In this document: one piece after another, positions 5,981-16,225 of the stretch
Layout of the letters: the number at the start of each line of letters is the position of its first letter
Position numbering within the stretch: position 1 is the first letter of the stretch
Source: Clostridiales bacterium DTU070
Lineage (GTDB): Bacteria; Bacillota; Clostridia; DSM-8532
Length of the DNA stretch: 42,544 nucleotides
NCBI GenBank assembly: GCA_001513105.1
Contig: LFSH01000097.1
Span: forward strand, 1-42,544
Direction of reading: 5' to 3'
Program-made: the position numbers and the translations under genes
The notes under the pieces: generated by a model
Seen by the model: the letters and a program-made list of their open reading frames with translations, nothing else
Databases searched by the model: none
Told to the model about the DNA's origin: nothing

Positions 5981-6853
5981 TCAATTCCTCTTTTTTGAAG
6001 TGGAGACCCCGAACAGGCTTCCCAGTATTCCAAGGGCGGCGCTTACTGACAGCAGGAAAATGCTAAGGCCATACATCAGCTGGCTTTTGGGCGGCAATGG
6101 TATGAAAGGAATGGTGCTGCCCAGCATGCCGTAGCCCTGGTGAATAAGAGTATTTATCAGGATCGTCGCCGCAACTCCTCCGCCGAATGTCAGCATGAAC
6201 CCGAGCAGTATATACGGGAAATTGATAAAACCGTCGGGCGCTCCCAACAGCATGAGCGTCCTTATTTGTTCATGGTTCTGGTATATTCCCTGGCGAATCA
6301 TGTGGGATATAATGACCAGGGTGGTTATGCTTACCGCCGCAATCACAAGGTAGCCAAGTACTTCAAGGGCTTTTGAAATGCCTTCAATCTGTTCAAGCGC
6401 TTCCCTGTTTTCCCTTACATAGTTTATTCCCTTCAGTGCGGATATTTGCGTAAAAACAGAATCCATTCTGTCAAGGTGGATTTTTACCTCGAAATAAGCC
6501 TCAAAGGGGTTTTCATCAAAAAGGTCCAGGATACCTGACTCTTCTCCCAGGATTTTTTCCATGCGGCTGCGGGCTTCCTCTTTGTCTACCAGCCGTACTT
6601 CACGGACTCCGTCAATCTGTCCAATTAAATTCAGCAGTTCTTCGGTATTACCGGCATCCCTGTCAAAATAGGCGCTTATCTCAGCCTCTTCTCGGAGCAT
6701 AACCGTTAACCTGCTGCTGATACTCCAGACGGCGATAACAAGAGCCAGAAGGAATAATATCAGGGCAGTCCCCAGGAATGAGAATATGTTTGAAAGTTTA
6801 TTATTCCGGAATATTCTGATTGACTCTTTAATAAAGTAAAAAGTGTTCCTCAT
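5981..6853 (-). CDS. ftsX: Cell division ABC transporter permease FtsX
   Basis: FtsX is the membrane half of FtsEX, which couples ATP use in the cell to activation of wall hydrolases outside. The 290-residue protein has the family layout: a cytoplasmic start MRNTFYFIKES, a first helix at about 22-46, an extracellular domain of about 110 residues (47-165), and three C-terminal helices with the RQGIYQNHEQIRTLMLLGA loop between the first two of them. Its ATG overlaps the ftsE stop in an ATGA junction, showing translational coupling. The gene is last in a three-gene minus-strand operon whose first gene is a secreted coiled-coil protein. Confidence 0.95.
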   Translation of the reverse strand: MRNTFYFIKESIRIFRNNKLSNIFSFLGTALILFLLALVIAVWSISSRLTVMLREEAEISAYFDRDAGNTEELLNLIGQIDGVREVRLVDKEEARSRMEKILGEESGILDLFDENPFEAYFEVKIHLDRMDSVFTQISALKGINYVRENREALEQIEGISKALEVLGYLVIAAVSITTLVIISHMIRQGIYQNHEQIRTLMLLGAPDGFINFPYILLGFMLTFGGGVAATILINTLIHQGYGMLGSTIPFIPLPPKSQLMYGLSIFLLSVSAALGILGSLFGVSTSKKRN

Positions 6854-7547: not shown

Positions 7548-8666
7548 TCAACCAAAATTCGGTGTAATCACAAATTCGAGGTAGCCGTCGAACACCTCGA
7601 CGGATTCCAATATCACGCTTCCCAGTATTTCTTCAAAATCTATGACTATTTGCCCGTTTCTGAACAGTTCGGCGAGGGAGGCTTCTGTCAGGGGCATGCC
7701 GTAAAAAGTTCCTTCCTCCACTTTAAACTTCAGAACGGTTTTATTTTCAATTTCAAAAACTCCGCGAAGGGACAGATGCTTTTCAGGGATATTAACCCGG
7801 ATTCCTTCGGGTGAGAAGTCAAATACCATTTCTGGGATTTCGGGTTGGTTTTTCAGAATATCGTTCAGCGTCTGGTCGTATATTGTACCCGAAAGTTTCG
7901 GGAAACTTATTCTAAGGTTAAGGGCCTCTATCGGGATATCGCCACGCTCAACTATTTCCGTAAAGTGAATGAGAATCTCCGAAAACAGGACCTTTATTTC
8001 ATCCCAAAGATTCTGCAGGCGCTGTAACTCTCCCTGGTATAATTCCTTCGCTTCGCCAAGGGAATTAAGAATTGCCTCCTGCTCTTCCTTGAGCCGGTAC
8101 ATCTCGTTCAGGGTTTCCTGCAGTTTTGCCATGTGCTTCTCCAGTTCCTGCTCCCTGAGATTCAGCTTTTCCCTTTCCAGGGCCAGTTCCTGTTTACGGG
8201 CTTCAAGCTCATTCAGCAGTTCATCGGTACTTCTGGTGACCTGGCGAATAATATTAAGGCTTTGAACAAAGTCAGACAGATTCCTTGACTTCAGAATTGA
8301 TTCCAGGAAAGAAGCAGGACCTCTTCTCTGGTAGCTTACAAGAACTTTTTTCAGAATGCCGAGCTGCCTGTTGTACACATTCTGCTTCTCTTCAATCTCT
8401 TTTGCAAGATTCTCTGACTCGCTTTTAAGCTGTTCAGTTTCAAACGTGATTAATTCCTTCTGCCTTTCGGTTTCTTCAATTTCCTGAGAAAGAGAAAACA
8501 AATCCTCGAGCACTGCTTCCTCAATATCCGAAATTCCCTGCAGCTTTTCCTCAACCTCGGCTATTGGCTGAACCTGCCCCGACACATGGTTTGAAAAGGT
8601 ATTTGCTGAAATAAAGGTAATGATTAATGCAACTGCAATGAAAAAGCAGAGTTTCTTTGGCCGCAC
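7548..8666 (-). CDS. Secreted coiled-coil protein, putative FtsEX partner without hydrolase domain
   Basis: The protein opens with a basic start and a hydrophobic helix (about residues 5-22), a signal peptide or membrane anchor. Two long charged heptad regions follow at about 35-115 and 135-235, joined by the segment RRGPASFLESILKSRNLSDF. That segment resembles the hinge in FtsEX-activated wall hydrolases such as PcsB, CwlO and EnvC. Those proteins end in a CHAP, NlpC/P60 or LytM enzyme domain; here residues 250-372 instead look like a beta-rich domain with no catalytic Cys/His or metal motif that I can see. The gene is first in an operon with ftsE and ftsX, so a role in outside-surface control of cell separation is inferred. 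Start is GTG at 8666 with only a weak upstream GGGGG. Confidence 0.75.
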   Translation of the reverse strand: MRPKKLCFFIAVALIITFISANTFSNHVSGQVQPIAEVEEKLQGISDIEEAVLEDLFSLSQEIEETERQKELITFETEQLKSESENLAKEIEEKQNVYNRQLGILKKVLVSYQRRGPASFLESILKSRNLSDFVQSLNIIRQVTRSTDELLNELEARKQELALEREKLNLREQELEKHMAKLQETLNEMYRLKEEQEAILNSLGEAKELYQGELQRLQNLWDEIKVLFSEILIHFTEIVERGDIPIEALNLRISFPKLSGTIYDQTLNDILKNQPEIPEMVFDFSPEGIRVNIPEKHLSLRGVFEIENKTVLKFKVEEGTFYGMPLTEASLAELFRNGQIVIDFEEILGSVILESVEVFDGYLEFVITPNFG

Positions 8667-12040: not shown

Positions 12041-12649
12041 ATGACTGCATATTTTGAATACGGGGAAAAAGAAACAGGATATTTGAAAAGCAGGGACAAA
12101 AAACTTGCCGAAGCAATCGACAGGATCGGCATGGTAAGGCGAAAGATCATTCCCGATCCTTTCTGCGCACTGGTACACAGTATCGTTGAGCAGCAGGTTT
12201 CGGGAAAAACAGCCCAAACCGTTTTTGACAGGCTGAACGGGAAGGCAGGCGGCATAACGCCCGAAAATATATTGAAGCTGGAGACCGAAGAGATACGTAA
12301 TTGCGGCATGTCGGCAAGGAAAGCAGGTTATATCAGGGGCATAGCCGAAGCTGCTATAACGGGTGCTGTTGATTTTGACAGCCTTAAAAGCAAAACCGAC
12401 CGGGAAATCATTGAAACGCTTACTAAGCTCCGGGGTGTAGGGGTATGGACCGCCGAGATGCTTTTGATTTTCTCCCTCCAAAGGCCGGATGTCATAAGTT
12501 TCAATGATTTCGGGATAAGAAAAGGCATAATGAAGCTGTATGGCATAAATGAGCTTACGATGGAAAAATTCTCAGAGTACCGCAGAATCTATTCACCTTA
12601 TGCCACGACTGCTTCAATATATCTGTGGGAAATAGCAAAGGGGTTATAA
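12041..12649 (+). CDS. AlkA-type DNA-3-methyladenine glycosylase (HhH-GPD family)
   Basis: This enzyme family removes alkylated bases from DNA to begin base-excision repair. The 202-residue protein has EQQVSGKTAQTVFDRL in the helical core, the helix-hairpin-helix LRGVGVWTAEMLL, and the conserved Asp156 in SFNDFGIRKG, the position of the catalytic aspartate in AlkA. No C-terminal iron-sulfur cysteines are present, which argues against the endonuclease III branch. The AlkA N-terminal TBP-like domain is absent, as in shorter Bacillus and clostridial forms. It starts 22 bases after the glycoside hydrolase, with a GGTGGTG site. Its last six bases overlap the convergent prsW-like gene. Two other DNA repair genes follow. 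Confidence 0.88.
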   Translation: MTAYFEYGEKETGYLKSRDKKLAEAIDRIGMVRRKIIPDPFCALVHSIVEQQVSGKTAQTVFDRLNGKAGGITPENILKLETEEIRNCGMSARKAGYIRGIAEAAITGAVDFDSLKSKTDREIIETLTKLRGVGVWTAEMLLIFSLQRPDVISFNDFGIRKGIMKLYGINELTMEKFSEYRRIYSPYATTASIYLWEIAKGL

Positions 12650-13342
12650 ATCAGGTTTGTTCAGGGCCTTCGATTCCTGGTAGAACCTGTTGAGTTTTCT
12701 CAGGTTCACAATCCACATGTAAATGACAAAGGGTATGAATAAAAGCATCAGCAACGGGATTCGGGCCAGAAGTATGAAGTTGAAGGTTCCATGGAACAGC
12801 ATAGGCACAACCAGCGACTGTGTAAAGTACCTTTTTGAGATTTCCGGGTCGGGGCTGAATTTTGCCAGCGACAGGTAATAGCCCATTGTTATCGCAAACA
12901 GCATATGGGCGGGAACGCTTAACAGGCCCCGGTACAGGCCGATATATGGATCGGCATCGTAACCCGATACCACGTACATTATGTTCTCAACAGTGGCAAA
13001 ACCAAGTGCGGAATACGCACAATATATTATTCCGTCGAGTTTTTCATCGAAAGCGTAATCGTGATAGGCCACCTTCATTACAACAAGGCGTTTGAAGTAT
13101 TCCTCGGTAAACCCTGCAACAATGTATGTTGTCCATGCTGTTGAAAGGATTCCCGGAAGGAAGTTCAAATTGCTTAAAAACCTTTCCACAGCAATTGTCG
13201 GTACGGCAGAAAGCATCCCGAACAGGAAAAGTTTCAGCAGAAGCCTTACAGGCTCCCTGTCGTACCTGTCGGTAAGATACAGCCCCATTGCAAGGGCTAT
13301 TCCCGGTATTACCGCAATGACAAACAACCGAAGATAATCCAT
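12644..13342 (-). CDS. PrsW-family intramembrane metalloprotease
   Basis: PrsW in Bacillus makes the first cut in anti-sigma factor RsiW; the wider family are membrane CPBP-like proteases. The 232-residue protein has about seven hydrophobic helices and the family's putative active-site residues in order: Glu80-Glu81 (FTEEYFKR), Glu119 (FATVENIMY), His146 (VPAHMLF) and His184 (LFHGTFN). No sigma or anti-sigma gene is near, so the substrate is unknown. GGAG lies seven bases before the ATG at 13342. Its 3' end overlaps that of the alkA-like gene by the six-base palindrome TTATAA, which supplies Leu-stop on both strands. Confidence 0.85.
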   Translation of the reverse strand: MDYLRLFVIAVIPGIALAMGLYLTDRYDREPVRLLLKLFLFGMLSAVPTIAVERFLSNLNFLPGILSTAWTTYIVAGFTEEYFKRLVVMKVAYHDYAFDEKLDGIIYCAYSALGFATVENIMYVVSGYDADPYIGLYRGLLSVPAHMLFAITMGYYLSLAKFSPDPEISKRYFTQSLVVPMLFHGTFNFILLARIPLLMLLFIPFVIYMWIVNLRKLNRFYQESKALNKPDL

Positions 13343-13425: not shown

Positions 13426-13521
13426 ATTAACACTGTATTAGTCTTGGCATAAACAAGGCACGATAGCAATGTATATTTTTCCACACCGTTTTGTCAAAAT
13501 ACTTTGTAAAGGACCATAACC

Positions 13522-14517
13522 ATGCCTTATCCTGGTAAACCTGATTTAATATTAAGATCTTTTGAACCTGTTGTAAATAATAAAAGCAGGGTCCTGATAC
13601 TGGGGACCATGCCGGGTGCTGAGTCTTTACGGCAGCAGCAGTATTACGCCCATTCGCGAAACCTGTTCTGGCCTTTTCTTTACGGGATATTTGACGAAAA
13701 ACCCGAACCGGAATATGACAAAAGGATTGAATTTCTGAAGAAAAAGAACATTGCATTGTGGGATGTTTATAAATCCTGCAGAAGAACAGGAAGCCTTGAT
13801 TCAAACATTACCGACGAGGTGCCCAATGATGTGGCAGGGCTGTTAGACAAGTACCCGAACATTAAATATGTTTTCTGCAACGGCGGAACGGCTGAGAAGC
13901 ATTTCAAAAGGCATGTGCTGCCCAATGTAAAGCGCGGTATTTTCTATATGCGCCTGCCTTCAACAAGCCCTGCCAATGCCTCAATACCGCCGGAGCGGAA
14001 AATGCAGATGTGGCTTTCGGTAAGGCATACCCTTGAAAACCGTATAAGGTACAAGTCTGCTGCAGTTACGTTGCTTGGCGATATTACCGTTCTTGCCGAT
14101 GATGAGCTTGTAACCGACATATTTCTTCCGGGCAGTGAAATGCGGTATGACAATTTTGCGGTTTTTTCGGGCAATGATGTTTCAGAGCAAGCAAGAGAAC
14201 AGATAGAAGAATACTTTGAACGAAAAAGGAAGGAATTTGATATTCCCTTTGAAGTACAGGGTACTCCTTTTGAAAAAAGGGTTTATGATACCTTGTTAAA
14301 AGTGCCTTACGGATGTACAATAACCTACGGTGAGCTGGCCGAAGCTGCCGGCAACAGGAATGCTGCAAGGGCGGTGGGACAGGCCATGAGAAAGAACCGC
14401 CTGCCCCTGGTTGTTCCGTGTCACCGGGTGATTGGCTCAGCCGGGAAAAATATCGGTTTTATGGGAGTACGGGGCAATCCTGTTCAGAATATTCTGCTTG
14501 AACTGGAGTCGTCGTAA
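13522..14517 (+). CDS. Fusion: hypoxanthine-DNA glycosylase (UDG superfamily) with O6-methylguanine-DNA methyltransferase
   Basis: Residues 1-165 match the DNA-deoxyinosine glycosylase branch of the uracil-DNA glycosylase superfamily: LILGTMPGAESLRQQQYYAH, NLFWPFL, ALWDVYKSC, a VPND segment, and STSPANAS at 147-154. Such enzymes remove hypoxanthine left by adenine deamination. Residues about 175-331 match the Ogt/MGMT suicide methyltransferase: VPYGCTITYGELA, RAVGQAMRKN and the acceptor motif VPCHRVIG with Cys300, then GFMGVRGN. The frame is continuous, with no stop or shift between domains. The ATG at 13522 has AAAGGA ten bases upstream. It is followed by hslO and a DUF4130-type gene on the same strand and preceded by an AlkA-like glycosylase. 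Family assignments are strong; coordinated action of the two domains is inference. Confidence 0.88.
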   Translation: MPYPGKPDLILRSFEPVVNNKSRVLILGTMPGAESLRQQQYYAHSRNLFWPFLYGIFDEKPEPEYDKRIEFLKKKNIALWDVYKSCRRTGSLDSNITDEVPNDVAGLLDKYPNIKYVFCNGGTAEKHFKRHVLPNVKRGIFYMRLPSTSPANASIPPERKMQMWLSVRHTLENRIRYKSAAVTLLGDITVLADDELVTDIFLPGSEMRYDNFAVFSGNDVSEQAREQIEEYFERKRKEFDIPFEVQGTPFEKRVYDTLLKVPYGCTITYGELAEAAGNRNAARAVGQAMRKNRLPLVVPCHRVIGSAGKNIGFMGVRGNPVQNILLELESS

Positions 14518-14563: not shown

Positions 14564-15481
14564 ATGAAAGACTATATGCTCAGGGCAATGACAAAAGACG
14601 GCCAGATTCGTATATATGCCGCCATTACTACGGAGACCGTGGCATATGCAAAAGAAATACATGATATGTATCCTACTTCAGCGGTAGCTTTGGGAAGGGT
14701 TCTTACCGCTGCGGCGATGATGAGCGGTACGCTGAAAAGCGATAAAAGCACCATAACCGTTCAGATTAAGGGGGATGGCCCGATAGGAAGCATCCTTGCC
14801 GTAACCGACAATAATTCGAATGTCAGGGGATATGTGCAGAACCCTTACGTGGATATCCCGCTGAATGACAATGGCAAGTTTGATATTGCAGGTGCTGTGG
14901 GAGAAGGTTATTTAAACGTAATTACCGACCTGGGTCTGAAGGAGCCCTACATCGGCCGGGTTAAACTGGTATCGGGCGAGATTGCCGAAGATATTACCTA
15001 CTATTATGCCGCATCTGAACAGACCCCGACTGTTACAAGCCTTGGCGTGCTGGTCGGACGGGACGGTAACATTATAAATGCCGGCGGGATTTTTATCCAG
15101 TTAATGCCGGGCACCGGGGAAGATGATATATCGTGGCTTGAGAAATGCGTTGAGAACATGCCGCCCGTGACAAAACTGCTTGAGCCGGGGAAAAAGATCG
15201 AAAGCATTATTGAAGAGGTGCTTCCGGGAAGAGAACTGGTATTCCTGGATACAAGACCCGTAAGGTATCAGTGCAACTGTTCGAGGGAGAGGATGGAAAG
15301 GAACCTCCTGAGCCTTGGTATCAAGGATTTGGAGGAATTGGCTGCCGATGGGAAGGAACAGGAGCTCGTATGCCATTTCTGCAGGACAAAGTACGTGTTC
15401 CAGCCTTCGGAAATAAGTGATATACTTGCCCGGGCAAAACAGGCTGATGTTTCCGAACCAGGCGGGCATGCCGAAGGGTGA
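14564..15481 (+). CDS. hslO: Redox-regulated chaperone Hsp33
   Basis: Hsp33 is a cytosolic holdase switched on by oxidation and heat, when four zinc-bound cysteines form disulfides and the C-terminus unfolds. The cysteines are seen as CNC (Cys237, Cys239) and CHFC (Cys270, Cys273). The N-terminal domain has ALGRVLTAAAMM and VQIKGDGPIG, both family hallmarks. Length of 305 is a little above the usual 290-300. A GGAG site precedes the ATG. It lies 46 bases after the HDG-Ogt gene and six bases before the DUF4130-type gene, suggesting a stress-repair operon. Confidence 0.95.
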   Translation: MKDYMLRAMTKDGQIRIYAAITTETVAYAKEIHDMYPTSAVALGRVLTAAAMMSGTLKSDKSTITVQIKGDGPIGSILAVTDNNSNVRGYVQNPYVDIPLNDNGKFDIAGAVGEGYLNVITDLGLKEPYIGRVKLVSGEIAEDITYYYAASEQTPTVTSLGVLVGRDGNIINAGGIFIQLMPGTGEDDISWLEKCVENMPPVTKLLEPGKKIESIIEEVLPGRELVFLDTRPVRYQCNCSRERMERNLLSLGIKDLEELAADGKEQELVCHFCRTKYVFQPSEISDILARAKQADVSEPGGHAEG

Positions 15482-15487
15482 TTCGTT

Positions 15488-16225
15488 ATGGTATATCTTT
15501 ATGACGGCAGCTTTGAAGGCCTGTTAACCTGCGTTTTTGAAGCAAATGCATCAAAGGAAAAGGAGCTGTCAATTAAAAACAGGGAAACCTACATCCCTTC
15601 GTTCCTTGATGAAGTCAAGGAAATTGAAACCGATATGGAAAAGTTTGGGCGGGTGTATTCATCGATACCGAAAAAGATATCCGGCCATGCGCAGGAGATA
15701 ATCTACCGGGCATGGCTTAGCGAGGATGAAAACGCTGCTGACTTGATTTATCATTTTTTAAGGGTGGGTTATAAAATAGGCAGCCGCGTTACCGATTTCA
15801 TACAGGATCCGCTGATAAATAAAATAATGGACCTGGACCTGAAGGTAAGAAGGGAAACCCACCGCTTTCTTGGTCTTTTAAGGTTCAGTGAATTATCAGG
15901 AGGAGTTTTTTACGCGGCTTATGAACCAGATTTCAACATTACCGGGTTAATTGCACCCCACTTTGCAGGGCGGCTTTCGATGCAGCCCTTTATTATTCAC
16001 GATAAGAAAAGAAATATCTGTGCCGTTTTTGACGGCAGCGAGGTTATACTGACAGATAAAACACCGTTGATCCCCGAGGTTGAAAACAGCACCGTGGATG
16101 AGTATGCTTCGCTGTGGAAGACATTTTTCAAAACAATAGCAATCGCGGAACGCAAAAACCCGCGCGCCCAGATGCAGTTCATGCCTAAGAAATACTGGAA
16201 AAACCTTACCGAGATGCAGGATTAG
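15488..16225 (+). CDS. DUF4130-type probable DNA metabolism protein
   Basis: The sequence opens YLYDGSFEGLLTCVFEA and ends with RAQMQFMPKKYWKNLTEMQD, which I recognise as the family known as TIGR03915/DUF4130. From memory, members usually sit next to a radical SAM protein of presumed DNA repair or are fused to uracil-DNA glycosylase-like domains; neither partner is next to this copy. No catalytic motif is evident; a run of conserved basic and aromatic residues near the C-terminus could contact nucleic acid. It starts six bases after hslO and is the last gene of the plus-strand group that begins with the HDG-Ogt fusion. Biochemical role is unknown; a DNA repair role is inferred from family context and these neighbours. 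Confidence 0.75.
   Translation: MVYLYDGSFEGLLTCVFEANASKEKELSIKNRETYIPSFLDEVKEIETDMEKFGRVYSSIPKKISGHAQEIIYRAWLSEDENAADLIYHFLRVGYKIGSRVTDFIQDPLINKIMDLDLKVRRETHRFLGLLRFSELSGGVFYAAYEPDFNITGLIAPHFAGRLSMQPFIIHDKKRNICAVFDGSEVILTDKTPLIPEVENSTVDEYASLWKTFFKTIAIAERKNPRAQMQFMPKKYWKNLTEMQD

Follow-up and report, generated by a model that had tools for sequence, protein, structure and literature searches.

The window analysed here, i.e. the 42,544 nucleotides at positions 1 to 42,544 of contig LFSH01000097.1 of Clostridiales bacterium DTU070 (assembly GCA_001513105.1), carries on its forward strand a single open frame that starts with ATG and encodes a protein of 331 amino acids (13522..14517, +). A Shine-Dalgarno-like AAAGGA (13508..13513, +) can be read from the sequence 8 nt 5' of the start codon. 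The preliminary description had proposed that this one chain combines a hypoxanthine-DNA glycosylase (HDG) with an O6-methylguanine-DNA methyltransferase (Ogt), which was confirmed by the uninterrupted frame and by a domain search in which the HDG profile TIGR04274 and the Ogt profiles TIGR00589, PF02870 and PF01035 all scored above their cut-offs. Upstream of the fusion gene are the gene for an AlkA-like HhH-GPD glycosylase (12041..12649, +), which is syntenic in part of the family, and a divergent gene for a PrsW-type membrane protease (12644..13342, −), a conserved neighbour that serves here as a synteny marker and for which no repair role is claimed. Downstream follow hslO, encoding Hsp33 (14564..15481, +) and missing from this position in some relatives, and a conserved neighbour encoding a putative DNA repair protein of the DUF4130/TIGR03915 type (15488..16225, +).

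The N-terminal half of the protein (aa 13-164; 13558..14013, +) belongs to family 6 of the uracil-DNA glycosylase (UDG) superfamily. TIGR04274 matched with 174.2 bits against a cut-off of 80 (E 1.8e-51) over the full length of the profile (1-150/150), and PF03167 also exceeded its cut-off. TIGR03914, the profile for the UDGX-type uracil-binding protein, gave no match in this half at E 0.001. The ordinary family-6 motifs QQYYAH..N and STSPAN are present, the latter at aa 147-152 (13960..13977, +) in the region of UDG motif 2, and the longer STSPANAS named in the preliminary description occupies aa 147-154. The presumed catalytic residue is Asn47 (13660..13662, +), which is conserved in at least 90% of the HDGs in a 45-row alignment. 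In a phmmer alignment it pairs with residue 39 of structure 2l3f, which we take to be the catalytic asparagine of the Methanosarcina barkeri HDG. The half resembles the M. barkeri enzyme in its full-length domain match, fold and motifs, whereas the usual TIGR04274 proteins are stand-alone enzymes of ~165-190 aa. Other HDGs with additional parts were seen as well. In two genomes of the same class, an HDG is joined to a NUDIX domain (PF00293, E 3e-13; L105:1433-2410, G164), which represents another repair or sanitising fusion, and to an alpha/beta-hydrolase-like C-terminal part with weak Pfam matches (L104:1447-2562, G277). Two further HDGs (L084:1492-2343, G245; L086:1411-2559, G330) carry a C-terminal extension of ~100-200 aa that has no Pfam match.

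The Ogt half (aa ~175-331) is complete and consists of two domains. The N-terminal ribonuclease-like domain (PF02870, aa 183-244; 14068..14253, +) was matched marginally, with 22.5 bits against a cut-off of 21, and the C-terminal DNA-binding and alkyl-acceptor domain (aa 248-329; 14263..14508, +) clearly, with 96.7 bits against 27 for PF01035 and 87.6 bits against 46.4 for TIGR00589. The PCHRV motif (aa 299-303; 14416..14430, +) contains the acceptor Cys300 (codon 14419-14421), as the preliminary description had stated. In comparison to M. tuberculosis OGT (4bhb) and human MGMT, both Ogt domains, the PCHRV motif, the arginine and asparagine of the helix and the C-terminal glutamate are alike, whereas the window protein adds the N-terminal glycosylase and has GFMGVR where a GY-x-GG stretch is usual. 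A similar form, GYMGKR, occurs in a HAD-hydrolase-Ogt fusion of the same family (L013:769-1980, G022), whose Ogt has the GYMGKRNNPLQ form common to the window fusion. This protein groups with the fusion Ogt in an Ogt tree that is too small and long-branched to date the Ogt half and leaves the fused group without clean resolution. As in E. coli Ada, Ogt forms the C-terminal part of a larger repair protein, but the zinc-binding N-terminal methyl acceptor and the AraC-type regulator part of Ada are absent: neither the Ada zinc-binding domain nor an AraC-type HTH gave a Pfam match in the fusion protein, and NF011964 remained far under its cut-off.

An AlphaFold2 model of the fusion, computed from 45 aligned sequences of which few were Ogt, reached a mean pLDDT of 82 and a pTM of 0.80, with values below 50 near the Ogt active site (residues 298-301 and 310-318). 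Modelled residues 9-173 superimpose on the Methanosarcina protein 2l3f with a Z score of 18.9 (157 residues, 2.2 A, 35% identity), followed by MUG and TDG as the next fold matches. The fold of residues 175-331 corresponds to that of full-length OGT from M. tuberculosis and of human MGMT, with Z scores of ~14 and 31-33% identity. The hinge between the two halves is short in the model and lies around residues 173-175.

In a survey of further genomes, seven members of the family besides the window genome proved to carry the same stop-free chain, with identities of 55-76%. The eight carriers represent four genera of one bacterial family of anaerobic Clostridia-type organisms. Among the matches listed, 398 genomes of the phylum yielded no further chain spanning both halves, and no HDG-Ogt chain came from 349 genomes of a Pseudomonadota sample, 148 genomes of an archaeal phylum or 195 genomes of a Verrucomicrobia-centred phylum. 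A TIGR04274 search of 391 genomes of the class gave no further long frame ending in Ogt among the matches inspected. Six peptide patterns of the fusion protein were the only queries run against a named genome collection, in which two of the carriers recur as MAGs (L021, L022) with identical coordinates. Within these sampling limits, the fusion seems confined to a part of a single family. A mobile or phage origin was considered and rejected, as no match covering at least 80% of the query was present in 72,556 plasmid and 50,697 phage records, none occurred in viral contigs, and conserved synteny also opposes it. In a gammaproteobacterial MAG (L056), separate HDG and Ogt-like genes lie within ~2 kb of each other (about 6001-6480, +, and 8024-8293, −), possibly an unfused neighbourhood of the same pair.

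Across the eight fusions, N47, S149-P150-A151-N152, R283, N292, P299-C300-H301-R302-V303 and E329 are invariant. At unsaturated synonymous divergence, codon comparison put dN/dS at ~0.07-0.15 for the HDG part as well as for the catalytic part of Ogt, and at higher values of ~0.2-0.5 for the intervening region. Both halves are under purifying selection. In a tree of 108 HDG rows, the fused HDGs form one clade with a support of 100/100 and a long stem (0.45); its wider placement is weakly supported. The single clade shows a single origin of the HDG half; the fusion thus arose once, in an ancestor of part of the family. Other genera of the family have stand-alone HDGs, which form a clade of their own well apart from the fused one; the fused HDG lineage thus differs from that of these sister genera. 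One genome of the window genus (G024, 97% complete; L133) contained no HDG that could be found, and its only Ogt is unfused and cut by a contig end, an apparent loss of the fusion. An Ogt fragment in G019 was dismissed, as it sits at the end of a contig in GC-rich sequence.

In all eight carriers, the fusion was the single match to PF01035, and the three carriers tested with TIGR04274 (the window genome G000, G025 and G026) gave one match each. All eight genomes therefore have no visible Ogt other than the fusion, which is also the only HDG where this was tested. Endonuclease V (PF04493) was found in none of 32 genomes of the family, while control genomes gave matches. Other hypoxanthine-removing enzymes may coexist in the carriers, for instance the product of the AlkA-like gene upstream of the fusion.

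Because of the family membership of both halves and their conserved residues, the fusion is very probably a bifunctional DNA-repair protein, predicted to excise hypoxanthine and to accept alkyl groups from O6-alkylguanine. The family-6 half would flip out hypoxanthine, i.e. deaminated adenine, and cleave its glycosidic bond by hydrolysis; the resulting AP site would be passed on to base excision repair. At O6-alkylguanine, the Ogt half would take the alkyl group onto its Cys300, a suicidal reaction that allows a single turnover, and O4-alkylthymine is probably a substrate as well. Linkage of the two could let them scan DNA together, keep their dosage equal and respond jointly to alkylating or nitrosative damage.

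Two other functional readings are improbable. Only one half might be active, for example a working Ogt attached to an HDG that has been reduced to binding DNA or sensing damage, or vice versa. Repair domains may indeed lose catalysis and still bind DNA, and alkyltransferase-like proteins that lack the acceptor cysteine are described in PMC10779285. Against this stand the catalytic residues of both halves, which are invariant in four genera at a dN/dS of ~0.1 in each half, and the lack of a paralogue replacing either half in the genomes tested. It is similarly doubtful that the HDG half has shifted to alkylated or etheno purines or to uracil mispairs, which would turn the protein into a pure alkylation-repair fusion. 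The broad specificity of the fold relatives MUG and TDG, the AlkA-like gene close by and the separate, long-stemmed clade of the fused HDGs would fit such a shift, and this clade could deviate from the substrate range of family 6; the standard family-6 score and the ordinary motifs of the half argue against it. Finally, a sequencing or assembly frameshift that merged two neighbouring genes was rejected as extremely implausible: other genera of the family (g2, g7) do have HDG and Ogt as two genes, but uninterrupted orthologues exist in independent assemblies including a single-contig genome of 2.97 Mb, G006 carries its HDG and its Ogt on two contigs with neither gene near the other, and the separate HDGs belong to another clade than the fused ones.

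The fusion is encoded in a conserved gene order, PrsW – fusion – [Hsp33] – DUF4130, which extends across the four genera and includes Hsp33 in some of them. Besides the window, a DUF4130 gene lies nearby on the same strand in all seven other fusion loci examined. No terminator-like site was found on the + strand between 13522 and 15488, and promoter-like matches around the locus were too common to be informative; the fusion and the DUF4130 gene are possibly co-transcribed. PMC3765255 describes an association of DUF4130 with uracil DNA glycosylases and radical SAM proteins of the SplB-like type. The radical SAM protein TIGR03916 is present in the window genome and five other fusion genomes, and was not found in the fusion genomes G015 and G018. 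In the window genome it is encoded on another contig (G000:C104:104-1324), apart from DUF4130, whose usual partner it is, and no homologue of twelve window genes was found in short stretches flanking the radical SAM gene in six relatives. Compared to the known association (TIGR03914/15/16), a UDG-superfamily gene again lies beside DUF4130 with the radical SAM gene elsewhere in the genome, whereas the UDG member is here a family-6 protein fused to Ogt. It may be speculated, at rather long odds, that the two active sites cooperate as one DNA-scanning unit which would repair clustered nitrosation damage, i.e. deaminated adenine together with O6-alkylguanine, in a pathway with DUF4130 and the radical SAM partner.

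No description of an HDG-Ogt fusion was found in the literature searched. It represents a real, inherited and lineage-specific domain combination that apparently has not been described before. Both component enzymes are well known, and the pairing of their lesions, which the preliminary description did not know as a standard pair within one chain, already occurs in an archaeal fusion. According to PMC10779285, which cites Kanugula et al. 2005, AGT-EndoV of Ferroplasma acidarmanus joins O6-alkylguanine transfer in a single chain to an enzyme that acts on deaminated bases. The archaeal protein follows the same logic and covers the same pair of lesions, including hypoxanthine, but there the alkyltransferase is paired with endonuclease V, an enzyme of unrelated fold that nicks DNA. 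In the window protein, the partner is a glycosylase of the UDG fold, the Ogt keeps its N-terminal domain, and no endonuclease V domain was detected with Pfam.

For the carriers within this family, the locus ties a UDG-superfamily protein to DUF4130 in a new way and offers an entry point into this uncharacterised association of repair genes; if the two active sites do cooperate, the fusion would give the DUF4130/radical SAM system a defined substrate context. Beside the archaeal AGT-EndoV, the fusion represents a second, independently built one-chain solution for the repair of hypoxanthine and O6-alkylguanine. The convergence of two unrelated fusions on the same pair of lesions suggests that both lesions arise or are met together.
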